Positions 11,671 through 26,988 of a DNA stretch of 28,645 nucleotides are shown one piece after another. The notes beneath the pieces were generated by a model. The model was given only the letters and a program-made list of their open reading frames with translations, had not been told where the DNA came from and searched no databases. The DNA is taken from positions 1 to 28,645 of IMG/VR virus record IMGVR_UViG_3300042888_001982. One strand, written 5' to 3'. The stretch comes from a virus. The position numbers and the translations under genes are program-made. Positions within the stretch are counted from its first letter, which is position 1; the number at the start of each line of letters is the position of its first letter.

Positions 11671-11981
11671 TGAGTAGAACCCAACCTAATATCCTGCTGG
11701 AGTATGTAGATAAGAAAACATACAAAACAGACCAGATTGTAGAAGCCGCAGGTATTTGGGCGGTGTTTTATGATGACCAACCAATCAATTTAAAGTCAAG
11801 TCATTATCTCGCAAATGATGTAGCACCTAAATATAAGAAAACAAGCTTTTCAAATCCAGGTCATGCTAGGAATCTGTGTCGAAAACTAAATGCACAATTC
11901 AAAACTGATAAGTTTACTGTAGTGTTTATGAATAGCGGCAGGGTAGTATACCCAGATGATCTATCCCAAGACCAAATCTGA
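11670..11981 (+). CDS. small conserved phage protein, unknown function
   Basis: 103 aa. It contains GIWAVFYDDQPINLKSSHYL and FSNPGHARNLCRKLNAQF, followed by FTVVFMNSGRVVYPDD. It looks like a compact alpha/beta protein with no recognised family. ATG 11670 overlaps the preceding stop, and the gene overlaps the next one by 26 bases, so the 11464-12372 genes are probably one transcription unit. Confidence 0.72.
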   Translation: MSRTQPNILLEYVDKKTYKTDQIVEAAGIWAVFYDDQPINLKSSHYLANDVAPKYKKTSFSNPGHARNLCRKLNAQFKTDKFTVVFMNSGRVVYPDDLSQDQI

Positions 11982-12372
11982 TATTGTCAAACTTGTATTA
12001 AATGAAGTAAAGGATGACCCTGATTTTCCTTGGAAAGATAAGTCGGTCGATCAGTTAGTATTTCAATGGTTCATGACAGGTAGAAGTGGTTCCGGGCTAA
12101 GACTTACTGATGCCGGCGCTCAAGCACTTATTTCTGCAAAAATCTCTCATTATAATTTTGACTTCAATCCTCCAAAAAATGTTAGGGGAGAAGTAAATTG
12201 GGGGAAATATACTGTCATCTTAGATAAAAAAGTAAACTGTCCCTACTATGTGGGAATCAATGTAGTTGACAATGGTAAGAAACAACCGTATATTAGAATA
12301 TACGATCACAAGATAGCAATGATGATGACCTTATACGGTGACTTTCAAAGCTATCTAGATTCGGTTAAATAG
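11956..12372 (+). CDS. conserved phage protein with FMTGRSGSGLRLTDAG motif
   Basis: 138 aa. WFMTGRSGSGLRLTDAGAQAL is a motif I have seen in unnamed T4-like phage proteins. The C-terminal half (WGKYTVILDKKVNCPYYVG, then KKQPYIRIYDHKIAMMMTLYG) is probably a small beta sheet and helix. ATG 11956 gives a long overlap with the upstream gene. No closer in-frame ATG lies near the upstream stop at 11981, so this start is the best available. Confidence 0.7.
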   Translation: MIYPKTKSDIVKLVLNEVKDDPDFPWKDKSVDQLVFQWFMTGRSGSGLRLTDAGAQALISAKISHYNFDFNPPKNVRGEVNWGKYTVILDKKVNCPYYVGINVVDNGKKQPYIRIYDHKIAMMMTLYGDFQSYLDSVK

Positions 12373-12397: not shown

Positions 12398-12405
12398 CAT
12401 AAATA
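12398..12405 (+). promoter_or_regulatory. possible T4-type late promoter CATAAATA
   Basis: NATAAATA match in the short gap before the EF-hand gene. The predicted start is near 12411, giving a leader of about 34 bases with an AGAGGA ribosome site before ATG 12445. Confidence 0.5.
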
Positions 12406-12444
12406 AATCGTAGCAAAGCTACATCACACACAGAGGAAAAAATT

Positions 12445-12693
12445 ATGAAGAATATCACTATTGGCCTGCTTATGGCCCTCACACTATCAACCCCAGCACT
12501 TGCTTCTTGGAAGACTGAATTGTTCACCAAGCTTGATGCAGACACTAGCGGGGAAATCACCCTTACTGAATTGACTGGCGCAGGTTGCCGCACTCAGCCT
12601 AAGTTCTTTAGCTATGCTGATAAGGATCGCAGCAATGGTCTTAGCAGAGTTGAGTTCTTCAACAACCGAGACCTTCTCGGTCGTTGCAACTAA
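12445..12693 (+). CDS. secreted two-EF-hand calcium-binding protein
   Basis: 82 aa. Residues 1-20 form a clear signal peptide: MKN, a hydrophobic core, and a TPALA cleavage site before Ser21. Two EF-hand loops follow. D31-E42 has the full canonical ligand set (DADTSGEITLTE). D59-E70 (DKDRSNGLSRVE) has ligands at positions 1, 3, 5 and 12. Two mature cysteines (C48 and C81) could form a disulfide in the periplasm. It has a good ribosome site and a possible late promoter upstream. A secreted calcium-binding protein is unusual in a phage. A role at the host envelope, perhaps in lysis, is an inference. Confidence 0.8.
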   Translation: MKNITIGLLMALTLSTPALASWKTELFTKLDADTSGEITLTELTGAGCRTQPKFFSYADKDRSNGLSRVEFFNNRDLLGRCN

Positions 12694-12704
12694 GGAGACC
12701 ATCA

Positions 12705-12986
12705 ATGATTAAAGTTTTAATTGAAAATACTGCTGAGGCTATTCAAGCTTCAAAGAAGATTTTTGTAGATACTTTTGTAAAGCATGAAGGTCTAGCAAAA
12801 AATATGCATGATTTTGTAGATGCTCAAACCGAGTACACTAAGAAAGCAATTGAGGTTGGTTTTACTACTGCCAGCAATATGCATAAAACTGTTACTGATA
12901 AATCATTTTATACAGAAACCGCAAAGTCAATGCAGGAATCTGCAAAGGCTATGTTTAACACACAGAAGAAGAAAGAAGAAAAGTAA
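12705..12986 (+). CDS. amphipathic helical protein, weakly phasin-like
   Basis: 93 aa from ATG 12705, preceded by AAGGAGA. The TTG at 12684 would lie in the previous gene. The sequence is almost entirely helical with Lys, Glu and Ala and has a loose repeat: HDFVDAQTEYTKKAIEVG, then SFYTETAKSMQESAKAMF. The composition recalls phasin-family proteins that coat granules or bind surfaces, but I would not assert homology. Located between the EF-hand gene and a 32 aa membrane peptide. Confidence 0.7.
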   Translation: MIKVLIENTAEAIQASKKIFVDTFVKHEGLAKNMHDFVDAQTEYTKKAIEVGFTTASNMHKTVTDKSFYTETAKSMQESAKAMFNTQKKKEEK

Positions 12987-12988
12987 TA

Positions 12989-13087
12989 ATGACAAATAAA
13001 GCACTATATGCGTCACGAGCCGGATTCATCACTACAATTTCAGGGATGATGGTTCTAACCTTCGCATTCATTGCAACCATTTTATAA
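12989..13087 (+). CDS. 32 aa single-pass membrane peptide
   Basis: Starts 2 bases after the upstream stop and reads MTNKALYASRAGF followed by a hydrophobic segment rich in Ile, Met, Thr and Phe that runs to the stop. A purine-rich stretch (GAAGAAAG) upstream could act as a ribosome site. Its tight fit between two genes and clean membrane profile support a real gene, although it is very short. Confidence 0.5.
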   Translation: MTNKALYASRAGFITTISGMMVLTFAFIATIL

Positions 13088-13098
13088 GGAAATATATC

Positions 13099-13365
13099 AT
13101 GAGTGATAACAAGATTCCAGGACTTCCTGAGATTAAGTTCAATAAGAATGGATATGAAATCCGTTCTGATATTTTGGGCCTAGCTGAAAAGCTAGTCATT
13201 GAAGAATATAAAGCTAAACTGTTTGGCTGGGAAGTATCGCAAGCGAAGGATGACGATGGTAAGATTGTTACCAAAGTCTCTGCGCCGGAGTTTCCTGGAC
13301 TTGAAAAGGTCCTTGAGACCGCTCAAAAGATGTATGATTTTGTAAATCAGAATCCAAAAAAGTAA
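13099..13365 (+). CDS. conserved marine T4-like phage protein, unknown function
   Basis: 88 aa. A TAAGGAAA ribosome site precedes ATG 13099. The core NGYEIRSDILGLAEKLV, then FGWEVSQAKDDDGKIVTKV, then PGLEKVLETAQKMYDFVNQ matches a pattern I recall from cyanophage and other marine T4-like phage genomes. No enzymatic motif, membrane span or signal peptide. Confidence 0.8.
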   Translation: MSDNKIPGLPEIKFNKNGYEIRSDILGLAEKLVIEEYKAKLFGWEVSQAKDDDGKIVTKVSAPEFPGLEKVLETAQKMYDFVNQNPKK

Positions 13366-13374
13366 AAAAAACGG

Positions 13375-13403
13375 TTGACAAAAGGTCTCCTTGGAGCTAT
13401 AGT
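13375..13403 (+). promoter_or_regulatory. sigma70-type promoter inside an inverted repeat
   Basis: TTGACA at 13375-13380, 17 bp, TATAGT at 13398-13403. The start should be near 13410. The -10 lies in the left arm of the inverted repeat described at 13381-13430. Confidence 0.78.
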
Positions 13404-13430
13404 CATAATATAGCTTCTAAGGAGATTTTT
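13381..13430 (+). promoter_or_regulatory. long inverted repeat that can sequester the ribosome site
   Basis: Left arm TCTCCTTGG plus AGCTATA (13386-13401), a 7 base loop, right arm TATAGCT then TCT then AAGGAGA (13409-13425). That gives about 16 base pairs with one bulged T, extended outward by weak A/G to T pairs. The right arm contains the Shine-Dalgarno AAGGAGA of the gene at 13432. RNA reading through from upstream can fold and hide it. RNA started at the local promoter lacks the left arm. Confidence 0.7.
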
Positions 13431-13431
13431 T

Positions 13432-13638
13432 ATGGGTAACGAAGATTTTGTCAGCTATGTGCTTAGCTTCTATAACGGCATTGATGGTATCTATAAAGAT
13501 GTAGATGCTACTCAAGCCGAAGTCATTGATGCTACCCGTAAGCTTGAAAAGATGTATCGCAGTCACGGCGAAGAACCTGTGTATGACAGCATCGACCGTG
13601 AGCGTGTCCGAGATTTTATCCTAGAATCTCGCAAATAA
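13432..13638 (+). CDS. small acidic phage protein, unknown function
   Basis: 68 aa. Acidic and mainly helical: MGNEDFVSYVLSFYNGIDGI, then ATQAEVIDATRKLEKMYR, then IDRERVRDFILESRK. AAGGAGA lies 6 bases before the ATG. It has its own promoter, and the next gene also has one. Function not recognised. Confidence 0.78.
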   Translation: MGNEDFVSYVLSFYNGIDGIYKDVDATQAEVIDATRKLEKMYRSHGEEPVYDSIDRERVRDFILESRK

Positions 13639-13649
13639 TCATTTTTCGG

Positions 13650-13678
13650 TTGACATTGCTTACCCATTTTGCTATAGT
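13650..13678 (+). promoter_or_regulatory. sigma70-type promoter with an 8 bp dyad over the -10
   Basis: TTGACA at 13650-13655, 17 bp, TATAGT at 13673-13678. TTGCTATA (13669-13676) and TATAGCAA (13684-13691) form a perfect inverted repeat with a 7 base loop. The right arm runs into AAGGAGA, the ribosome site of ATG 13703. The spacer contains TACCCATTTTG, shared with the promoter at 24153. Confidence 0.78.
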
Positions 13679-13702
13679 GAATATATAGCAAGGAGATACT
13701 AA

Positions 13703-14341
13703 ATGGCTCGTTATCAACGCCCTTCGTACAACACTGTTGATGTTTTTGCTGCTGCGTGTGCAGCTACCCGTGTCAACGGTGGCTACCTCAAGTACACCGA
13801 AACTAACGATGAATCTGGTACTAGCAAGCTTGCTAACAAGGTTCTCATCCGTCAGTTTCTTGACGGTACCTTTGATGTGCGTGACAGTGACCGTGAACAG
13901 GGTGAAAAGGTCATGCAGCATTGCCGCAGCCTTACTTTCAAGCTGCTGACTGACAAGCGCCTCTCTGATTTTGAGCAGAATATGCTCTCCATCGTAGAGA
14001 AGGAAACGCTTGATAGCAACTATGATATTGCTATCGTCTCCTCGCTCCCTAACACATACAACCGCAGTGAATATCATCGTGCTGTTGATACTCGTATCCG
14101 CGAGACCGAAGGTGTGTTTGGTACCGTCGGTGAGCGTGTTCAAGTCACTGCCGAAGTAGTGAAAAGCTATTTCTCCGATCAGTGGGGTACGCATTTCATC
14201 ACTGCTATCACCGATGATAACAAGCAGGTGTTCTTTGCTTATAAGCAGAGTCTCACTGTAGGCGATAATATCAACATTGACGGTAAGGTTAAGGCTCACC
14301 GCGACAACTCTACCCAGCTTAACTATGTGAAGATGGTATGA
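13703..14341 (+). CDS. phage protein with C-terminal OB-fold-like domain
   Basis: 212 aa. The N-terminal 130 residues are helical (VDVFAAACAATRVNGGYLKY, then EKVMQHCRSLTFKLLTDKRLSDFE). The C-terminal 80 residues read GTVGERVQVTAEVVKSYF, then THFITAITDDNKQVFFAY, then GDNINIDGKVKAHRDN, a five-strand pattern typical of OB folds. A nucleic-acid-binding role is plausible and fits the ligase gene just downstream, but no specific family is claimed. Strong promoter and ribosome site. Confidence 0.72.
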   Translation: MARYQRPSYNTVDVFAAACAATRVNGGYLKYTETNDESGTSKLANKVLIRQFLDGTFDVRDSDREQGEKVMQHCRSLTFKLLTDKRLSDFEQNMLSIVEKETLDSNYDIAIVSSLPNTYNRSEYHRAVDTRIRETEGVFGTVGERVQVTAEVVKSYFSDQWGTHFITAITDDNKQVFFAYKQSLTVGDNINIDGKVKAHRDNSTQLNYVKMV

Positions 14342-14535
14342 GTGCAGAGAAAGAAAATGTATTCCGTACATTGCGTGAAAAGGAACTACTTGTGACCTTT
14401 TGGGGCTGTAGAATTGGCTGGCATAAGTGGCAGAAGTGGGGCAAAGCATATAAAGAATCATATTATCACGCACAGGACCGACATTGTGATTCCTGTAATA
14501 AGTTTTCCCGTAAACAAATAAAGCTTCCCCTATGA
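14338..14535 (+). CDS. small putative zinc-binding protein
   Basis: 65 aa, basic and Trp-rich. ATG 14338 overlaps the previous stop by 4 bases (ATGA). It contains TFWGCRIGWHKWQKWGKAY and a C-terminal HCDSCNKF knuckle, so a zinc site with His/Cys ligands is likely. Function unknown. Probably translationally coupled to the OB-fold-like protein. Confidence 0.7.
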   Translation: MSAEKENVFRTLREKELLVTFWGCRIGWHKWQKWGKAYKESYYHAQDRHCDSCNKFSRKQIKLPL

Positions 14536-14560
14536 CCGATTGGATGAAGTACCTTTTTGA

Positions 14561-14589
14561 TTGACATTCACCCCATTATGTAGTATAAG
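14561..14589 (+). promoter_or_regulatory. sigma70-type promoter for DNA ligase, leaderless
   Basis: TTGACA at 14561-14566, exactly 17 bp, TATAAG at 14584-14589. ATG 14596 follows after 6 bases, which is the expected position of +1, so the ligase mRNA should begin with its start codon. Confidence 0.75.
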
Positions 14590-14595
14590 AAGACT

Positions 14596-15960
14596 ATGAG
14601 CGCAAGTTTTATAACACAACTAAACGAAGACAACGGACGCCTGCATAAGGAAGATGTTCTCAAGCAAGCCCTTACCGCAGCTAATTTAGGAAGCGATATC
14701 GCCATTCGTTTTCTAGGTGGTTTAAAAGCTTGTTATAATCCATATGAAACATTTGGTATCAAGCAAATCCCTGAATCAATCGGAATCTCAGATGCCGAAA
14801 ACCCCTGGGAAGATTTTTGGTCATTGTTGCAGGACTTGAGTGATCGGCGATTGACAGGCAATGCTGCTCGTGATGCAGTTGCAGAAATGTCAGAGCGATT
14901 TGACAGTGATGAATGGAATCTTTTCCTTGCTCCTATCCTTCGTCGTGATATGCGTAGCGGCATTAGCGCAACCACAATCAATAAGATTGTAAAGGGAACT
15001 CATTACGAGATTCCTATCTTCACTTGCCAGCTTGCTACCAATAGTGAGGGGCGCCCTGAAATGCGTGGCACTAAGCGTCTTGAACCGAAGCTTGATGGTG
15101 TTCGTGTACTGATGGTCGTTCTTCCTGGAACAATGAACCCTAGTGTGGTTGCCGTTACTTGTTATAGCCGTAATGGCAAGTTGTTTGAAAACTTTGAACA
15201 CATTGAAGAACAAGTCCGTAAGAATATTGGCGAACTTGTCGCCGCGGCTGGCAGAACTAAACACATGTCAAGTGGCATTCTCAAGCAAGGGTTTGTACTT
15301 GACGGGGAAGTAGTTGGCAACAGCTTCCAAGAACTAATGCGTCAGGCTCGTCGTAAAGAAAATGTTGCGGCCGAAGATAGTGTCTTCCATGTGTTTGACA
15401 TTATCCCGCTTGCCGACTTTAGGCGCGGTCATTGGAATGCACAATTGAGCAAGCGTATTGCATTGCTTGAATCTATGCAGCCTGCATTTGATAAGATGCC
15501 TAATATGGAGCTGCTCCCTCACTTGCAAGTAGACCTTGATACTCACGAAGGTAACAACCAGCTTGAGCGTTATGCTAAGGACATGGTTGCTGCTGGATTT
15601 GAAGGCATTATGATTAAGGACCTTGATAGTCCTTATATCTGCAAGCGTTCTACTTCGTGGATGAAGTGGAAGCCTACTATCACTGTTGACCTTGAAGTGA
15701 TCGGGCTTGAAGAAGGCACCGGTCGTAACAAGAACCGTTTGGGTGCGTTGGTCTGCAATGGGATTGATGATGGTAAGGAAATTACTGTCAATGCTGGTTC
15801 TGGATTCAGTGACGCAGAGCGTGATAGTCTTTGGGCAGACCGTAACTTAATCTTTGGTCGCACTGTTGAGATTATGGCTGATGCTATTACACAGAACCAA
15901 GATGGTACATATTCGTTGCGCTTCCCGCGCTTCGTTAGATTTAGGGATGATAAAGCATGA
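14596..15960 (+). CDS. ATP-dependent DNA ligase, T4 gp30-like
   Basis: 454 aa. The adenylation motif I is LEPKLDGVRVLM with nucleophile Lys165. Other nucleotidyltransferase motifs follow in order: CYSRNGKLFENF, GFVLDGEVVG (motif III), FEGIMIKDLDSPY (motif IV) and SWMKWKP (motif V). The C-terminal OB domain includes GALVCNGIDDG and ends RFPRFVRFRDDK. The N-terminal 150 residues form the helical DNA-binding domain. Length is close to T4 gp30 (487 aa). It seals nicks during replication and repair. ATG 14596 has no ribosome site upstream, consistent with a leaderless mRNA. It overlaps the next gene by 4 bases. Confidence 0.93.
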   Translation: MSASFITQLNEDNGRLHKEDVLKQALTAANLGSDIAIRFLGGLKACYNPYETFGIKQIPESIGISDAENPWEDFWSLLQDLSDRRLTGNAARDAVAEMSERFDSDEWNLFLAPILRRDMRSGISATTINKIVKGTHYEIPIFTCQLATNSEGRPEMRGTKRLEPKLDGVRVLMVVLPGTMNPSVVAVTCYSRNGKLFENFEHIEEQVRKNIGELVAAAGRTKHMSSGILKQGFVLDGEVVGNSFQELMRQARRKENVAAEDSVFHVFDIIPLADFRRGHWNAQLSKRIALLESMQPAFDKMPNMELLPHLQVDLDTHEGNNQLERYAKDMVAAGFEGIMIKDLDSPYICKRSTSWMKWKPTITVDLEVIGLEEGTGRNKNRLGALVCNGIDDGKEITVNAGSGFSDAERDSLWADRNLIFGRTVEIMADAITQNQDGTYSLRFPRFVRFRDDKA

Positions 15961-16142
15961 ACATTAAATATAAAGCAACACTAATTACCTTAGCTATGCT
16001 ACTTATTGCAGTTGCATTGATATATACTATCGCAAAGTTTCCAGCAGTATTAGTTTTTGCTGCGTTAGGTGGGATGTTGTACTTTTTGTATCGCGGAGTA
16101 TTGAGCCATCTTGAATATAAAGAAAAGAGGGGCAAGCGATGA
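15957..16142 (+). CDS. small two-span membrane protein
   Basis: 61 aa. Two hydrophobic segments, LITLAMLLIAVALIYTIA and AVLVFAALGGMLYFLY, are joined by a short KFP loop and followed by a basic tail HLEYKEKRGKR. Overlaps the ligase stop by 4 bases (ATGA). Function unknown. Not called a holin because it sits in a replication gene block. Confidence 0.75.
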   Translation: MNIKYKATLITLAMLLIAVALIYTIAKFPAVLVFAALGGMLYFLYRGVLSHLEYKEKRGKR

Positions 16143-16318
16143 GTGATTTAGGTATTATTTTTGAAGAACCGCCCCAGCGTTGCGAAGGCTGCGGTATCAT
16201 CGCAGAGACTCGTCCATATGGACTCAACCACGAAGAAGTATGTTTTGAATGTGCAATGAAGGATGAAGCACTGACTGAAATTCGTTCAAAGCAACTATTA
16301 TTTGGAGAAAACGAATAA
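16139..16318 (+). CDS. 59 aa putative zinc-ribbon protein
   Basis: Starts in an ATGA overlap with the membrane gene and ends in a TAATG overlap with the next gene. The sequence has two knuckles, RCEGCG (C15 and C18) and VCFEC (C35 and C38), spaced as in a four-cysteine zinc ribbon, then an acidic helical tail. Function unknown. Confidence 0.78.
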   Translation: MSDLGIIFEEPPQRCEGCGIIAETRPYGLNHEEVCFECAMKDEALTEIRSKQLLFGENE

Positions 16319-18169: not shown

Positions 18170-18187
18170 GTTTTGATAAGTAAAAGT

Positions 18188-19387
18188 ATGTCTGACAAAA
18201 AACTGAATGAGTGTTCTTTCTGCGGAAACTCAAAAGAGCAAGTAAAAAAATTAATCGTAGGAGAAGGTGTAGCAATATGCAGTGATTGCATTGATTTATG
18301 CACCCAATTAATTGTAAATGATGTACCAAGCGATAAACATCGTGAGCGTGATGCCAAAGACTTTGATGCATACAGTATCAAGGAACATCTTGACCAGTTA
18401 GTTATTGGACAAGATCAAGCTAAGATTGTGTTGAGCGTTGCTATCAGCAATCACTATAAGCGTATTAACAATCCACCTCAAGATTTGGAAATCCAAAAAG
18501 GAAATGTGTTATTGATAGGTCCAACCGGGTCAGGCAAAACCTTACTAGCAAAATCAGTAGCAAAATATCTGAATGTCCCATTTGTAGTTGCAGATGCTAC
18601 TAACCTAACAGAAGCAGGATATGTAGGTGAGGATGTGGAATCTATGGTTTCCATGCTACTTGCATTAGCAGACAATGATGTTAAAAAAGCAGAACGCGGT
18701 ATCGTATTCATCGATGAAATTGACAAGATTGCTCGTAAAAGCGAATCAACTAGTATTACTCGTGATGTAAGCGGAGAGGGCGTCCAACAAGCACTTCTTA
18801 AGTTAGTAGAAGGTACCAAATGCAGAGTGAGTGTAGCCGGTAAACGCAAGCATCCGCAAGGTGAGACTGTTGAGATTGACACTAAAAATATTCTGTTTAT
18901 TGCAGGTGGTGCGTTTGTTGGATTAGAAAATGTCATTAAGACCAGAACACAAGGTAGTACAATTGGATTCGGAGCAGAGGTCAAGAGCAAAGATGAAGCT
19001 CAGGATTTGAGCAAAGTTACGCCGGATGACCTTACTCGTTTCGGTATGATTCCTGAGTTCATCGGTCGCTTTACAACTACTTGTGCGCTAGAACAGCTTA
19101 CATTAGACCAACTAGTCAATGTATTAACTAACATCAAGAATAGTTTCATAGAGCAATACCAGTATTTGTTGAGTTTAGACAACATTGAACTATCTTTTAC
19201 CGACGGTGCTATTCGAAAAATTGCACAGAATTGCATTGACCTTAAGACTGGAGCACGAGGACTTCATACTGAATTAGAAAGAATACTGTTGCCTCACATG
19301 TTCCATACTAAAAAGTATAAAGATAATAATATTACCATCTTAGTAATTGATGAAGAATTAGTTATCAATCCCAAAGAAGTAATTTAA
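18188..19387 (+). CDS. clpX: ClpX, AAA+ unfoldase subunit of ClpXP
   Basis: 399 aa from ATG 18188; a TTG at 18173 is less likely. All functional parts are present: zinc-binding domain with C9, C12, C31 and C34 (CSFC, then CSDC), Walker A GPTGSGKT (111-118), pore-1 loop GYVG, Walker B VFIDEID (about 173-179), KRKHP pore-entry loop, IGF loop for ClpP docking (259-261) and the sensor 2 segment TGARGL. It is about 25 residues shorter than E. coli ClpX, at the C-terminus. It unfolds tagged proteins and feeds them to ClpP. With ClpS, Hsp20 and ClpP nearby it looks like a working machine, not a relic. Confidence 0.96.
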   Translation: MSDKKLNECSFCGNSKEQVKKLIVGEGVAICSDCIDLCTQLIVNDVPSDKHRERDAKDFDAYSIKEHLDQLVIGQDQAKIVLSVAISNHYKRINNPPQDLEIQKGNVLLIGPTGSGKTLLAKSVAKYLNVPFVVADATNLTEAGYVGEDVESMVSMLLALADNDVKKAERGIVFIDEIDKIARKSESTSITRDVSGEGVQQALLKLVEGTKCRVSVAGKRKHPQGETVEIDTKNILFIAGGAFVGLENVIKTRTQGSTIGFGAEVKSKDEAQDLSKVTPDDLTRFGMIPEFIGRFTTTCALEQLTLDQLVNVLTNIKNSFIEQYQYLLSLDNIELSFTDGAIRKIAQNCIDLKTGARGLHTELERILLPHMFHTKKYKDNNITILVIDEELVINPKEVI

Positions 19388-19423
19388 CCCAAAATACTAG
19401 AATTTTTTGCGAAAGTGTAGTAG

Positions 19424-19431
19424 TATAAATA
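19424..19431 (+). promoter_or_regulatory. hsp20: T4-type late promoter TATAAATA before hsp20
   Basis: Exact TATAAATA with predicted start near 19437, giving a leader of about 54 bases before ATG 19491. No -35 is found at the right distance, which suits a late promoter. A 7 bp inverted repeat (ATGTAGA at 19435-19441 and TCTACAT at 19454-19460) overlaps the start and could end or stabilise clpX read-through RNA. Confidence 0.6.
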
Positions 19432-19490
19432 ATGATGTAGATGCTCAAAGAGGTCTACATTATAGTCTTGCTTATAAAGGAGATAAAAAC

Positions 19491-19946
19491 ATGACTAGAG
19501 AATTAACCCTTCGTTCCCTTGACATTCCGTCAATTCACAAGTTCGGTATCGGATTTGATAGCATTCTAGATGAGCTTATGCGAGTCAATGCACAACAAAC
19601 AAATACCAACTATCCCCCATACAACATTGTTAAGCACAGTGAAGATGCATTTGCAATTGAACTTGCTGTGGCGGGATTCCGAGAAGGTGATATCAACATT
19701 ACACTAGAAAAGAATGTTCTTACCATCAAAGGCGAACAAACAGTAAGCCTTGATGAGTTGGAAAAGGATGTAGAGTACGTACATCGCGGCATCAGTGCCC
19801 GTGCGTTTACTCGCACATTCACTCTAGCAGATTATGTTGAAGTAGTAGGTGCAAGCGCCGAGAACGGCATCCTCAATATTGAACTTGAGCGTCAAGTTCC
19901 TGAGGAACAAAAGCCCAAAACGGTTGCAATTAAGTACAATAAATAA
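19491..19946 (+). CDS. hsp20: small heat-shock protein Hsp20, IbpA-like
   Basis: 151 aa from ATG 19491, preceded by AAAGGAGA; an upstream in-frame start at 19407 lies before the late promoter. The N-terminus GIGFDSILDEL and YPPYNI match bacterial IbpA/IbpB. The alpha-crystallin domain contains AIELAVAGFREGDINITLE, VLTIKGEQ, YVHRGISARAFTRTF and ENGILNIELER. The C-terminal VAIKY could serve as the I-x-I oligomerisation motif. It holds unfolding proteins without ATP. Hsp20 genes are common in marine T4-like phages. Here one sits between clpX and clpS under a late promoter. Confidence 0.95.
   Translation: MTRELTLRSLDIPSIHKFGIGFDSILDELMRVNAQQTNTNYPPYNIVKHSEDAFAIELAVAGFREGDINITLEKNVLTIKGEQTVSLDELEKDVEYVHRGISARAFTRTFTLADYVEVVGASAENGILNIELERQVPEEQKPKTVAIKYNK
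19939..19946 (+). promoter_or_regulatory. possible late promoter AATAAATA before clpS
   Basis: The last codons of hsp20 (Asn, Lys, stop) also read AATAAATA. The predicted start near 19952 would make an mRNA that begins just before the 11 bp hairpin in front of clpS. The overlap with coding sequence makes this uncertain. Confidence 0.35.
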
Positions 19947-19959
19947 TATAGTGATACAT

Positions 19960-19989
19960 GTGCTTGCGGGTAATAGTGCCCGCAAGCAC
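19960..19989 (+). other. strong 11 bp hairpin between hsp20 and clpS
   Basis: Perfect inverted repeat: GTGCTTGCGGG (19960-19970), an 8 base loop, CCCGCAAGCAC (19979-19989). No U-run follows, so it does not look like a classic terminator. It ends 18 bases before clpS, next to the AAAGGA ribosome site. It may stabilise or separate the hsp20 and clpS messages, or be a protein-binding site. Confidence 0.75.
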
Positions 19990-20007
19990 AACATAAAGGA
20001 TTTTAAA

Positions 20008-20316
20008 ATGGCAAACACAGAAGTCAACAGTAAGATTAAGCCAAATGTTAGTCTACGAGAGCCGCCCTTGTTTAAGATTGTATATCTTAATGATGATGTA
20101 ACCTCAATGGATTTTGTAGTAACTTCACTAATCGAATATTTTAATTATAATCCGGACACTGCATCAGCTATCACGGTTGACATTCATGAAAAGGGTAGTG
20201 CAGTAGTTGCAGTTTTACCTTTTGAAATTGCAGAGCAGTTGGGAATTGAAGTTACTCTTGAAGCTCGTGCGCTGGGGTTTCCATTGCAAGTTAAGGTAGA
20301 ATCTGAATCAAATTGA
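20008..20316 (+). CDS. clpS: ClpS, N-degron adaptor for Clp protease
   Basis: 102 aa from ATG 20008, preceded by AAAGGA. The core aligns without gaps to E. coli ClpS: PPLFKIVYLNDDVTSMDFV holds N28, D29, D30, T32 and M34, equal to N34, D35, D36, T38 and M40 of the N-degron pocket; H60 equals H66 and the FPL near the end matches L99. The position of E. coli M62 is T56 here, which could change which N-terminal residues fit. A flexible N-terminal extension of about 18 residues, needed to act on the unfoldase, is present. In Proteobacteria ClpS works with ClpA, not ClpX. No ClpA is seen in this window, so the partner may be host ClpA. Confidence 0.93.
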   Translation: MANTEVNSKIKPNVSLREPPLFKIVYLNDDVTSMDFVVTSLIEYFNYNPDTASAITVDIHEKGSAVVAVLPFEIAEQLGIEVTLEARALGFPLQVKVESESN

Positions 20317-21006
20317 TACCGTTAGTCGATTTGGCCAATACGGGTTTTTGCCTAAGTAAGGATTGTTCAAGTACCGTATATCATTTAATACAGTATCAAC
20401 CGATTTAGTATATGTACCGAATACCCAATGCTTAACTTTATGCTCTGTGTCAACATGAAGTGTATTAGTTAGTGGTATTTGGTCATACACTATAGTTGGT
20501 TCTTCTCCGAAATACAGGTCTTCTTTAGGAACTGCATTTGTAATAACTATTATTTTCTTAACATCTAAATGTCTTTGTAATTTTCCTAAGATAGTAGTTA
20601 GGTACTTTGTATCTTCATATCTTGCAGCAGTTCTTATCATTTCAGAAATAGTATCAACAGAACCTGCATTTCCCCACCCATTAACTCCGATAATACCTAT
20701 TCCATCTACAATAATTACAGTTTGATGTAGTAAAATTACATTCGGTATGTTAGCGCAAATTTGTGTTATTTCAGCAGTGCGGGTTGAAACATCATCGGTA
20801 TTAGTATATTCTAAGGTGCCAGGTACATAAAAAACACCCTGATAGTATTTTGATAGGTGAGAAAGAACTTGCATTAGTGTTCTTAAATCGGAACTGACAT
20901 TGCCGGTTACTATACAATAGAGACTTGTGGCTTTGTTTTCCCAATTGAAACTATCATTGGGTTCGATGAATAACTCACCCACAATGTCAAATCCAATGTC
21001 TTGCAT
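20308..21006 (-). CDS. metallophosphoesterase-like protein with lost active site
   Basis: 232 aa on the minus strand. It keeps the layout of phage calcineurin-like phosphoesterases (YYQGVFYVPG, VIIVDGIGIIGVNGWGNAG, KKIIVITNAVP, then WVFGTYTKSVD, then LNDIRYLNNPYLGKNPYWP), but the metal ligands are replaced. GNH(E) is GTLEY, the GD motif is GN, DxH near the start is ELF, the lone His is Asn, and GHTH is GTYT. It is probably a non-catalytic relative. Its start overlaps the stop of the 95 aa gene (TAATG), so both come from one message. It meets clpS tail to tail with a 9 base overlap. Confidence 0.6.
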   Translation of the reverse strand: MQDIGFDIVGELFIEPNDSFNWENKATSLYCIVTGNVSSDLRTLMQVLSHLSKYYQGVFYVPGTLEYTNTDDVSTRTAEITQICANIPNVILLHQTVIIVDGIGIIGVNGWGNAGSVDTISEMIRTAARYEDTKYLTTILGKLQRHLDVKKIIVITNAVPKEDLYFGEEPTIVYDQIPLTNTLHVDTEHKVKHWVFGTYTKSVDTVLNDIRYLNNPYLGKNPYWPNRLTVSI

Positions 21007-21293
21007 TACTTTACAATTTTAATGTTTGGCTTCTTTGATTTTTTTGCGGGTGCTTTGTCGGCTGTTTTTGCCTTTGCAGTCTTAGGTGCTTTAACCTTAG
21101 GTGCTGCCGTCTTAGCTACAACTTCAACCTTAGCTACAGTAGCTTCGGCGGCTACTGCGATAGCTTTTTCTCTAGCGGCATCCTCATCCTTAATTTTCTT
21201 CACAGCTTCTTGAAGAAGCATTTCTTCAAATTGCAAACTTACTGGTTTAGCACTGAAAAAAGTTTTAAGTGCGTTGACAAATTTATTAAACAT
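21006..21293 (-). CDS. Lys/Ala-rich phage protein
   Basis: 95 aa on the minus strand. An amphipathic N-terminus MFNKFVNALKTFFSAKP, then a short helix FEEMLLQEAVKKIKDEDA, then a long low-complexity tail of Ala, Lys, Val, Thr and Pro with repeated KAPK and KTA units, similar to histone H1-like tails. The tail probably binds DNA or RNA by charge. AGGAGA precedes the ATG and a minus-strand CATAAATA lies upstream. A virion-associated or DNA-condensing role is possible but unproven. Confidence 0.75.
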   Translation of the reverse strand: MFNKFVNALKTFFSAKPVSLQFEEMLLQEAVKKIKDEDAAREKAIAVAAEATVAKVEVVAKTAAPKVKAPKTAKAKTADKAPAKKSKKPNIKIVK

Positions 21294-21323
21294 TATTTTT
21301 CTCCTATATATGTTTTATGCTAG

Positions 21324-21331
21324 TATTTATG
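21324..21331 (-). promoter_or_regulatory. late promoter CATAAATA, minus strand
   Basis: Reads CATAAATA on the minus strand, 31 bases before the ATG at 21293, with AGGAGA in between. It drives the 95 aa gene and the phosphoesterase-like gene. It is back to back with the plus-strand motif at 21352. Confidence 0.6.
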
Positions 21332-21351
21332 ACTTAACCCAAACACAATAG

Positions 21352-21359
21352 AATAAATA
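21352..21359 (+). promoter_or_regulatory. late promoter AATAAATA, leaderless
   Basis: NATAAATA with 5 bases between it and ATG 21365. By T4 geometry +1 is the A of the ATG. No ribosome site is present. Divergent partner of the minus-strand motif at 21324-21331. Confidence 0.58.
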
Positions 21360-21364
21360 CTAGT

Positions 21365-22903
21365 ATGCGTGATATACTCAACAGACTTGAAACACTAAAT
21401 GAAAGTACAGGACTCGCCGGACGAAAATCCGGCGATGTATTTAAAACACCTGACGGTGATGAAATTGTATTTAATAACATAAAATTTTATCCGGAGTTAG
21501 GTGGAAAATTAGAACCAGACGAACTTGATAGGGCGATAACTCAAGTTGATAGCGTTGGCGCTATCAAGTGGCTAAATAATCGTTCTTCTAGAACCGGTGG
21601 TATAGCAGTTGCATCATTTGATACTCCTGAAGGTGAGCTATATTTCGGTAGATATCTAGAATCAGTCAAACCTAACTTTACAGATAACTATGTTCCTAAT
21701 CAGATTGGTGATTACAAATTTGCAGGTAAAGCAGCAGCTAAGGCTCAATCAGGATTGAGCCCACAGGACCTACTCACTGATAAAATTGACCTAACAGCAA
21801 ATGATATTCTGTCACAGTTAGCAAACACTTTAGGTACCGATAATCCTTTATATAAGATGGCATATAGTTTAGCTGATGGTACTCCACTACCAATGACTAT
21901 TGACGCTCCCGAAGGCGTAAGTTTCAGTGCGTTCAGAGATTATTTCTGTGAGATATTACAGCCCATCGCATTACAGAAGGGTCAGTATACAGGCAATGCA
22001 GGTGAGGCTGCTGAAATCTTCTTGGGTGGAAGCTTTGAAGACACGGTGATTAGCTTTGACGATACAAAGACTGCTGGATTGAGCGATAGTATCATGACCA
22101 ACAGCGAAGGTAAGAGTATCAAAGTAAGCACCAAGGGCGGTAAAGGTGCAACTGCAAGTACTAGTAATCTAATCAATAGTGTAGATGAATTGAGTCAAAC
22201 ACCAAATGGTCAGAAACTCTTAGAAAAATATAGCGATACTATTGAAATCTTGCGTGAAATTAAAAAGCAAGGACAAGCGGGTTCTCCTCTATATCTAGGC
22301 GTAAAGTATGATATCATTGACCAAGAAGACGCACAGACTGTAAAGGACTTGAAAAAGTTAGGTCCTGCTAATATGGATAACATTGATAATTTGGGATTAT
22401 CCGATAATCTAGTCAGTCTTGCTAAATCTAGAAATGCAGACAACCCTAGCAGTATCAATTTATACTACCACCTGATGGCTGCTATTGCACACAAAGCCGC
22501 AGAAGAAGTCAATGATAAGACTGACTTTAGTAACGCTGCTGCCGATATTCTTAACAACGGTGCGTTAGTGCAGGTGTACACCAAAGCTAAAGAAAGCAAG
22601 GGACAATGGACCCTTGACGAATTCAATACAGTATATCCTGGTGAAAGTATCAAGGGTGTTTACCTAAGTGCAGGTAAAACTTATTACAGCACAGGTATCA
22701 AAGGTAACTATACATTCAATATTGATAAAGGTCAGGGAAAACAAAAAGACGATGAGGCTACTTCTGCATCGCCGGGCCGTGCAAAGAGGGCACAGTCTGA
22801 AAAAGAATTCACTGATAAAGCGGCAGATATTGCCTTAGGTAGAAACAAGCCTAAGCTTGATAAAGCAGTACCAACCGGTAATGTTGGTAGAGCAAAACGG
22901 TAA
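21365..22903 (+). CDS. large late protein, possible packaged nuclease-like protein
   Basis: 512 aa. The N-terminus MRDILNRLETLNESTG looks like a T4 capsid-targeting leader: a short amphipathic helix and TLNE before Ser, which fits the prohead protease rule of Leu/Ile-x-Glu. Around residues 210-265 the order GEAAEIFLGG, then DSIMTNSEGKSIKVSTKGGKG resembles a PD-(D/E)XK core (Glu, Asp, then VSTK). The C-terminus repeats SPGRAKR and NVGRAKR about 35 residues apart, in basic, low-complexity sequence. With its late promoter, it could be an internal head protein ejected with the DNA. Function is inferred, not shown. Confidence 0.6.
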   Translation: MRDILNRLETLNESTGLAGRKSGDVFKTPDGDEIVFNNIKFYPELGGKLEPDELDRAITQVDSVGAIKWLNNRSSRTGGIAVASFDTPEGELYFGRYLESVKPNFTDNYVPNQIGDYKFAGKAAAKAQSGLSPQDLLTDKIDLTANDILSQLANTLGTDNPLYKMAYSLADGTPLPMTIDAPEGVSFSAFRDYFCEILQPIALQKGQYTGNAGEAAEIFLGGSFEDTVISFDDTKTAGLSDSIMTNSEGKSIKVSTKGGKGATASTSNLINSVDELSQTPNGQKLLEKYSDTIEILREIKKQGQAGSPLYLGVKYDIIDQEDAQTVKDLKKLGPANMDNIDNLGLSDNLVSLAKSRNADNPSSINLYYHLMAAIAHKAAEEVNDKTDFSNAAADILNNGALVQVYTKAKESKGQWTLDEFNTVYPGESIKGVYLSAGKTYYSTGIKGNYTFNIDKGQGKQKDDEATSASPGRAKRAQSEKEFTDKAADIALGRNKPKLDKAVPTGNVGRAKR

Positions 22904-22912
22904 CCAAATCAC

Positions 22913-22941
22913 TTGCTAAAGTAACAAAACTAGTGTACTAT
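22913..22941 (+). promoter_or_regulatory. clpP: sigma70-type promoter for clpP
   Basis: TTGCTA at 22913-22918, 17 bp, TACTAT at 22936-22941, with a leader of about 23 bases and an AGAAGGA ribosome site before ATG 22971. The boxes are weaker than those of the other promoters. clpP therefore has its own start, separate from the late hsp20 signal. Confidence 0.6.
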
Positions 22942-22970
22942 GAACTTCTAATCAAATAGAAGGATAATTA

Positions 22971-23561
22971 ATGACACTAGTTCCAATGGTACTTGAACAG
23001 ACCTCTCGCGGTGAGCGTTCATACGACATCTATTCCCGACTGCTTAAGGACCGTGTAATTTTGCTTGAAGGCGAAGTCCATGATCAAATGGCAAATCTTA
23101 TTGTAGCACAGTTGCTTTATCTTGAATCTGAGGATCCTGATAGCGACATTTCAATGTACATTAACAGCCCGGGCGGTAGTGTCACTGCTGGTATGGCAAT
23201 CTACGACACTATGCAGTTTATCAAGCCAGACATTACTACTATCGTAATGGGTCAAGCTTGTTCAATGGGTTCGTTGCTTGCTCAAGCAGGTGCAGCAGGT
23301 AAGCGTCTTATGCTTCCTCATGCACGACACATGATTCACCAGCCCTCAGGCGGCGCCCGTGGTCAAGCGACTGACATGGAAATTCAGGTTCGTGAAATCC
23401 TTGCAATGAAGAAGTCATTGACTGAAATCTATGTCAAGCATAACAGTGCCGGTAAGACTTATGAGCAGCTTGTAGCCGATATGGAACGAGACTATTTTAT
23501 GAGTGCAGAAGAAGCACTTGCATATGGTCTTATCGATAAGGTTATCAACAAGCGTGACTAA
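22971..23561 (+). CDS. clpP: ClpP, serine protease subunit of Clp protease
   Basis: 196 aa. Catalytic triad Ser98 ([10 protein letters not shown]), His123 (MIHQPSGG) and Asp172 (MERDYFM) are all present, as are the substrate-binding [11 protein letters not shown] strand, the handle helix region and the ATPase-docking N-terminal loop. The start [17 protein letters not shown] aligns with residue 1 of mature E. coli ClpP (ALVPMVIEQ), so there is no propeptide to remove. It should form the double-ring proteolytic chamber and can pair with the phage or host ClpX. ATG 22971 follows AGAAGGA. Confidence 0.96.
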
Positions 23562-23666: not shown

Positions 23667-23861
23667 ATGAATTCATATCGTACAGTAACGAAGCAGGCGT
23701 CTCCCGGATCTAGTAAAGATGTAGTAAACATTTATCACAACGGTAAATTCAAAATTGCGTATCGTTATAGAGACTGGTCCGAAGAAGCTGTAATCAAAGA
23801 ACTTGATCTTCTTAAGATAAGGTTTTCGGATACTAACGGATATCTGATAAAAATAGGTTGA
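23667..23861 (+). CDS. small phage protein, unknown function
   Basis: 64 aa, basic. It reads MNSYRTVTKQASPGSSKDVV, then IYHNGKFKIAYRYRDWSEE, then AVIKELDLLKIRFSDT. A small beta-hairpin plus helix is likely. GGGAGA precedes the ATG. Its stop codon (TGA) forms part of the TTGACT -35 box of the next gene. Confidence 0.72.
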   Translation: MNSYRTVTKQASPGSSKDVVNIYHNGKFKIAYRYRDWSEEAVIKELDLLKIRFSDTNGYLIKIG

Positions 23862-23886
23862 CTCTACACTCATTTGGGTGTAGAGT
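23858..23886 (+). promoter_or_regulatory. sigma70-type promoter forming a 9 bp dyad, leaderless
   Basis: TTGACT at 23858-23863, 17 bp, TAGAGT at 23881-23886, then 6 bases to ATG 23893. The -35 and -10 ends are themselves inverted repeats: ACTCTACAC (23861-23869) and GTGTAGAGT (23878-23886) with an 8 base loop. This could be an operator, or in read-through RNA a hairpin. Confidence 0.7.
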
Positions 23887-23892
23887 TAATCT

Positions 23893-24156
23893 ATGGATAA
23901 CGAAGACTTTTATCATAAGTGTGCCGAACTGTTGGGAGTTGAATATGACTGCCAGCCGTTTCCGTGGACCCATTCTAACCGCACACGCTGGAACAATCGT
24001 GCGCCTGGTTCTGGTCGTTATCCTGGCTTCGGCATCATTCGCAAGTTTAGTAATCAGATACATGTAGCATTGTCTAACCCTATCAGCCATCACGGTATCT
24101 ATGATAGCGAGGAAGAAGTTTTCACTTTTTTGCAGAATTTGGATAAAAGTGGTTGA
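23893..24156 (+). CDS. small phage protein, predicted leaderless mRNA
   Basis: 87 aa. Residues 1-20 are acidic (MDNEDFYHKCAELLGVEYDC). The middle is rich in Arg, Pro and Gly (WTHSNRTRWNNRAPGSGRYP) and the end is helical. No ribosome site precedes the ATG. No family recognised. The last codons overlap the next promoter (stop TGA inside TTGACA at 24153). Confidence 0.75.
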   Translation: MDNEDFYHKCAELLGVEYDCQPFPWTHSNRTRWNNRAPGSGRYPGFGIIRKFSNQIHVALSNPISHHGIYDSEEEVFTFLQNLDKSG

Positions 24157-26289: not shown

Positions 26290-26532
26290 ATGGACATATT
26301 AGGAAAACTCAATGGTATGCTTGCCGAGGGCGACGGCAAACTCAGCAACAAGCGTGTTATCACTCTACTAAGCACTTTAATGCTTGTAGTAGCATTCGTA
26401 GCCAATCTATTTTTCAATTATAAAATTGACGATAACATTCTAAATGCTATCATGTTTGTAATCATCGGTGGTATGGGCATCACTGGCATGGAAAAGTTTG
26501 CTCCAAAAATAACTGCACCAATCAAAAAATAA
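26290..26532 (+). CDS. holin-like small membrane protein
   Basis: 80 aa. MDILGKLNGMLAEGDGKLSN then KRVITLLSTLMLVVAFVANL form a polar N-terminus and first span; LNAIMFVIIGGMGITGMEKF is the second span, followed by a Lys-rich tail. Size, two spans and charged tail fit class II holins, and I recall similar proteins in T4-like marine phages. Late promoter upstream. No endolysin is visible in this window. Confidence 0.6.
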   Translation: MDILGKLNGMLAEGDGKLSNKRVITLLSTLMLVVAFVANLFFNYKIDDNILNAIMFVIIGGMGITGMEKFAPKITAPIKK

Positions 26533-26535
26533 CGC

Positions 26536-26564
26536 TTGACATTACCTCGTTTTGGGCATATAGT
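26536..26564 (+). promoter_or_regulatory. sigma70-type promoter nested in two dyads
   Basis: TTGACA at 26536-26541, 17 bp, TATAGT at 26559-26564. It lies within the dyad pair described at 26544-26587. Confidence 0.78.
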
Positions 26565-26587
26565 GAATCTATAGTTTGAAACGAGGT
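26544..26587 (+). promoter_or_regulatory. nested inverted repeats covering promoter and ribosome site
   Basis: Outer arms ACCTCGTTT (26544-26552) and AAACGAGGT (26579-26587), inner arms TATAG (26559-26563) and CTATA (26569-26573). They share nearly the same centre, just after the -10. The outer right arm contains GAGG, the ribosome site of ATG 26593, so it would be paired in read-through RNA only. Confidence 0.72.
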
Positions 26588-26592
26588 TTGTC

Positions 26593-26988
26593 ATGGATAT
26601 GCTTACAGTAGGTAACGAAGTTACTATCAAAGTCAAAAATGTAATGTGGCCCGTTCGTCATCGTTATGCGAATGGTGTTGCTGGTCCTGAGTTCAATGTG
26701 TACACTGGTACCGTTGTTCGTGAAAAGTGGTTTGGTGCAGAAGAAATTGGCATCACTACTGGCAATCCCCAATTCCCCTTTCGTCGCATTCATCGTGAGC
26801 GTATCGTAGAAGTCGGTGGCGCTACGATTGATTATACTCCTGTCAAAAGTGACCGTATCACTAAGACCGTGCAGGGCAGCAAGGGTAACACCTATATCGT
26901 CACTGCTGAAAATGGTAAGGCTACTTGCACTTGTCAGGGCTACTCGTTTAGAAAGACTTGTAAGCACACTCTAGAGGTGCTTGCATAA
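26593..26988 (+). CDS. SWIM zinc-finger protein
   Basis: 131 aa. The C-terminus KATCTCQGYSFRKTCKHTLE is a SWIM finger (CxC, then CxH), a zinc motif that binds DNA or protein partners. The N-terminal 80 residues are beta-rich (VGNEVTIKVKNVMWPVRHRY, then VYTGTVVREKWFG), perhaps a KOW/SH3-like domain. KGNTYIVTAENGKATCTC links the two. A DNA- or RNA-binding regulator is plausible. Confidence 0.78.
   Translation: MDMLTVGNEVTIKVKNVMWPVRHRYANGVAGPEFNVYTGTVVREKWFGAEEIGITTGNPQFPFRRIHRERIVEVGGATIDYTPVKSDRITKTVQGSKGNTYIVTAENGKATCTCQGYSFRKTCKHTLEVLA

Follow-up and report, generated by a model that had tools for sequence, protein, structure and literature searches.

A sigma70-type phage promoter with a candidate translation-gating hairpin in its spacer, and similar elements before other phage genes

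The genes for an 88-aa and a 68-aa protein of a phage are separated by just 66 bases, into which TTGACA, a 17-nt spacer, TATAGT, AAGGAGA and a T6 run are packed. The two genes (Table 1) lie in a 28.6-kb virus record of tailed-phage type, whose whole length is the window analysed here and which also holds genes for DNA ligase, 5'-3' exonuclease, ClpX, ClpS, ClpP and Hsp20. Relatives of ClpX, Hsp20, ClpS and ClpP are clustered in 5.4 kb of the record (18173-23561). When compared with named phages by DNA similarity, the region 12400-16200 gave no match; the 88-aa gene had no match among them either, and the 68-aa gene had distant matches in Methylophilales phages alone (38%). The leader of Melnitz-2, the single Methylophilales phage leader examined, had no comparable hairpin.

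Table 1. Positions in the window of the two elements, their genes and a neighbouring promoter
Feature	Position	Strand	Details and basis
Upstream gene, 88 aa	13099..13365	+	Stop codon 9 nt 5' of the -35; read-through RNA would carry the hairpin
Sigma70-type promoter (TTGACA, 17-nt spacer, TATAGT)	13375..13403	+	Sequence; conserved in relatives
Hairpin left arm with anti-SD TCTCCTT, within promoter spacer and -10	13380..13401	+	Predicted fold
Hairpin loop, 7 nt	13402..13408	+	Predicted fold
Hairpin right arm with SD AAGGAGA (13418-13424) and T6 run	13409..13431	+	Predicted fold
68-aa gene of unknown function (PHROG 7799), putatively gated	13432..13638	+	ATG at 13432
Promoter of the next gene, weak version	13650..13705	+	Shorter TTGCTATA/TATAGCAA dyad reaching just the first SD bases; excluded from full cases
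Second element, same design, unrelated sequence	26536..26595	+	TTGACA, left arm ACCTCGTTTTGGGC, -10 TATAGT, SD ACGAGG in the right arm, ATG 26593
131-aa SWIM zinc finger gene, putatively gated by the second element	26593..26988	+	Sequence

The -35 (13375-13380) and -10 (13398-13403) hexamers match the consensus at 11 of 12 positions with a 17-nt spacer, in agreement with the sigma70-type promoter claimed by an earlier note on this DNA. That note had also described a hairpin hiding the Shine-Dalgarno sequence (SD), and computed folding confirmed it: AAGGAGA pairs with TCTCCTT in a structure spanning the spacer, the -10 and the leader. The stem, put at about 16 bp, was there but somewhat longer than stated, with 22 pairs predicted between 13380-13401 and 13409-13414 plus 13416-13431, including G-U and outer A-U pairs; the T6 run occupies 13426-13431, with the ATG immediately 3' of it. 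The minimum free energy was -26.9 kcal/mol, versus -9.4 ± 2.5 kcal/mol for 200 dinucleotide shuffles, none of which was as good (z = -7.0). No Rfam RNA family matched the window at gathering score.

From the -10 spacing we infer a transcript start at about 13409-13411, as the earlier note had supposed in placing it near 13410. Because the usual start, 6-8 nt past the -10, falls at about 13410, on the boundary between loop and right arm, RNA made locally would lack the left arm. To open the stretch from SD to AUG, read-through RNA needed 13.0 kcal/mol and RNA from 13410 needed 4.3 kcal/mol, and the predicted long and short RNAs thereby behaved as had been stated; when 29 starts of the window were scored, the median long-versus-short difference was 0.7 kcal/mol. 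In promoter-to-leader pairing, the elements at 13375 and 26536 (elements 1 and 2) were extreme outliers among the 48 promoter clusters of the phage group.

Together with the conservation and the pairing in similar elements described below, the sequence and the modelled folds make it probable (roughly 0.78) that element 1 is a promoter-embedded, translation-gating hairpin, and support the mechanism of the earlier note as the best reading. RNA from the upstream operon, carrying both arms, would fold and hide the SD and the start, leading to poor translation of the 68-aa gene, while RNA started by the local sigma70-type promoter at the loop/right-arm boundary would leave the ribosome site open. 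With the long RNA closed and the local RNA open, translation would thus be tied to transcription from the local promoter, and read-through RNA would be silent; in this copy, the stem and T6 may also terminate part of the upstream transcripts. Predicted folds may differ from folding in a translated, co-transcriptional setting, and how far translation would fall, and whether this would be timed during infection, we can only infer.

Relatives of the 68-aa gene were found at 43 loci in IMG/VR. All close relatives that had the promoter also kept the stem, with aa identities as low as 74%; nearly all distant homologs were without the element, and one of them (L040) had a different promoter-like sequence and no comparable stem. 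Across the nine distinct rows of the element 1 alignment, 97% of cells pair, and the two most diverged copies (L033 and L219) retained the core stem with loss of some outer A-U pairs. The compensating changes anticipated for relatives were found in part: L012/L018 have a double change of an outer A-U to U-A, with the adjoining G-U changed to A-U, but L003 changed on one side only, breaking one inner pair. Covariation in element 1 alone was not significant (158 of 500 shuffles as good), because the core arms hardly vary and there is one double change. In L028, the promoter-hairpin precedes a different 30-codon ORF and the counterpart of the 68-aa gene lies ~650 bp downstream, so the element can persist while its gene is swapped.

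In element 2, ACCTCGTTTTGGGC in the spacer is set against GTTTGAAACGAGGT at the SD (z = -7.85), with an opening cost of 19.4 kcal/mol in the long RNA versus 4.0 kcal/mol in the short one. Seven variants maintained 10-13 pairs through switches among G-U, G-C and A-U, and most relatives preserved pairing by compensatory and G-U-preserving changes. At L302 (59% aa homolog), for example, neighbouring T-A pairs became G-C and A-T, and an A-T at the outer end became C-G. The window copy has four adjacent G-U pairs, mismatched as DNA symmetry and paired as RNA. The diverged homologs of the downstream gene in L296 and L304 had a weaker or different hairpin.

Homologs of a dsbA-like gene, fetched by protein alone, provided a test set unselected for hairpins. 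The promoter was in the same place and the arms varied, namely CTCCTTG/CAAGGAG, TCTCCTGTG/CACAGGAGA (L470) and ATCTCCTATA/TATAGGAGAT (L499), with the arm shifted onto the -10 in L496. The leaders' own arms out-paired exchanged arms (38 clusters, P = 0.0012). Many of these relatives had the promoter and no hairpin, and the device is therefore optional for the dsbA-like gene. Among the four named phages examined at this site, the hairpin was clear in PA5oct (arms AACTCCGTT/AACGGAGTT), probable in Phosso and absent from Atu_ph07 and SCTP-2.

Judged by sequence pattern, the same design, in sequences unrelated to that of this freshwater phage, turns up ahead of what appear to be dozens of different phage genes. 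In 2.57 Mb of loci fetched irrespective of hairpins (137 promoter clusters), there were seven promoter-leader duplexes of -20 kcal/mol or below, versus 0.28 expected with leaders exchanged; of the seven, L177 had no evident SD, and the duplex in L191 looks like a chance product of coding sequence. L034, L241 and L302 contributed new sequence versions of the element. Viral contigs were also scanned for TTGACA, CTCCTT, AAGGAG and ATG at leader spacing, which gave at least 119 stretches versus 19 in total for the one control, a reversed hexamer. The matches listed fall into ~40 downstream-protein groups, and the genes behind them include a MazG-domain protein, an AAA clamp-loader-like ATPase, and HNH and endonuclease VII relatives. 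Pairing went at least three Watson-Crick pairs past the imposed six-pair seed in 21 of 38 gene groups (chance 7%) and in none of 12 control groups, gene-group counts that are inflated by the pattern-based selection of loci. The mismatch types are unaffected by that selection: across 68 phage gene groups with strong stems, with G-U and A-C scored alike, there were 37 G-U and 5 A-C, versus about 1:1 for permuted arms. Pairing is therefore maintained in the sense-strand RNA and not as DNA symmetry. On this evidence, we are inclined to think that many phages, and not just the T4 relatives with their late promoters, have repeatedly evolved sigma70-type promoters with an anti-Shine-Dalgarno arm in the spacer, which would insulate genes from read-through translation.

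The promoter at 13650 has counterparts in L178, L197 and L213, where a short TTGCTATA/TATAGCAA dyad also ends at the SD, before different genes; this family is possibly a weak form of the hairpin device. The pattern occurs in bacterial genomes as well (loci from L547 on), where about one-third of 97 gene groups extend by at least three pairs. We make no claim for them, because a -10 was present in only 42% and the G-U versus A-C count (8:5) was not significant; some of these matches may be operators. At one bacterial locus, L621, an 18-bp stem lies ahead of a PadR-like gene.

A different function was considered for the same hairpin, namely that it serves chiefly to end transcription of the upstream operon, as an intrinsic terminator merged with the promoter that follows, SD hiding being a by-product of compact packing. 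We regard this as possible but unlikely, although the window copy fits it well: T6 directly follows the stem, a d'Aubenton-Carafa-like score reaches +16.4, and of 52 distinct loci in relatives that lack the element, 38 have a canonical terminator at this site after the upstream gene, often followed by a new promoter. Element 1 thus resembles the intrinsic terminators between phage operons in having a stable stem then a U run where relatives have a terminator; it differs from them in that its right arm is the SD of the next gene and its left arm that gene's promoter. The likeness does not extend to the class, most members of which are without a long U run: T was present in at least five of the seven bases past the SD core in just 14 of 38 gene groups, element 2, L302, L241, L439 and PA5oct scored well below zero, and in L012 the U run is broken (score -9.7) and the pairing retained. 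The earlier remark that the hairpin and T run might help end upstream transcripts is consequently plausible for the window copy, and not for L012, element 2 or most others. Because the terminator score of the window copy is not shared by L012, element 2 or the bulk of the others, termination may be an added function in element 1, and the predicted translation silencing is the common denominator of the class.

An inverted repeat covering the -10 and +1 could also be a DNA operator, on which a dimeric phage or host regulator would sit over the -10 and start site. Several other promoters in the window bear a short GCTATA/TATAGC dyad, and some bacterial matches precede regulator genes, such as the PadR-like protein identified by eye in L621. 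The arms of elements 1 and 2, however, differ within one phage, each matching its own SD, and two-fold DNA symmetry was not conserved across relatives: stems tolerate G-U, which breaks that symmetry, and rarely A-C (the 37:5 above), and element 2 has its four consecutive G-U pairs. We rejected the operator on this strand asymmetry and hold it to be improbable. It is more improbable still, to the point of being hardly credible, that the hairpin is a functionless chance structure in AT-rich intergenic DNA; AT-rich leaders are numerous in such phages, but the folding z-score, the recurrence and enrichment over controls and the conservation in relatives all stand against chance.

A translation-gating hairpin of this kind has well-described precedents, and the comparison with T4 drawn in the earlier note was apt (PMC3014915, PMC2988022). 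Ribosome sites are hidden in this way in T4 e, soc, 49 and I-TevI and in Aeh1 mobE, and T4 segB is implicated: read-through RNA hides the SD or AUG, and a promoter in the left arm yields RNA without that arm, with a ~100-fold drop in translation for gene e (PMC3014915, PMC2988022). In the cases described in detail, the local RNA comes from T4 late promoters (PMC3014915, PMC2988022). T4 gene 49 belongs to the endonuclease VII family (PMC2988022), as does the match in L161. Element 1 is similar in that its SD and AUG are predicted to pair in a stable stem of upstream-started RNA and that the predicted RNA of its local promoter excludes the left arm. It differs in having TTGACA-17-TATAGT in place of the T4 late promoter TATAAATA. 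The T4 cases use late (or middle) promoters, whereas here the promoter is of the sigma70 -35/-10 type and its spacer is taken up by the left arm; the genes served are of many kinds rather than mostly lysis or endonuclease genes. IS10 and IS50 are protected from read-through activation in a comparable way: transcripts entering from outside fold so that the transposase start is hidden, which does not happen in transcripts of the inner promoter. Their arms are supplied by the transposon end, whereas here no mobile-element end is involved and the promoter spacer itself forms the arm. What is apparently new is the use of sigma70-type promoters, the placing of the left arm between the -35 and the -10 and the frequency of apparent independent origin; a literature search of incomplete coverage did not find the sigma70-spacer version described, which is weak evidence of novelty.

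If many phages do have such promoters, these would add a widespread and mostly undescribed level to phage gene control, one recognisable from its sequence pattern. Termination is leaky in the one-directional operons into which phage genes are packed; should a read-through antidote be a routine part of promoter spacers, operon membership would fail to predict protein output, and reading phage expression data would require mapping of start sites. The rule is simple enough for computer annotation and might be usable as an insulator in synthetic circuits.

Further promoters and starts of the window showed arrangements of their own. Three promoters at 24153, 24528 and 25721 (+) share a near-identical 5' leader, AATTATAAGCTGAGAAAACGGAG, before different genes, and the leader recurs in relatives. 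At 23858-23893 (+), an inverted repeat, CTCTACACTC..GGGTGTAGAG, links the -35 and -10 of a promoter, and the ATG of ORF 23893 is near the expected start of its RNA, making this a near-leaderless gene. The start of ORF 26290-26532 (26290) had an opening energy of 11.0 kcal/mol in the long RNA versus 1.6 kcal/mol in the short one. Finally, a promoter-like site at 12266-12300 (+), within ORF 11956-12372, is followed by a dyad, CGTATATT-AG-AATATACG, and a promoter-like sequence resembling it was found again in several relatives.
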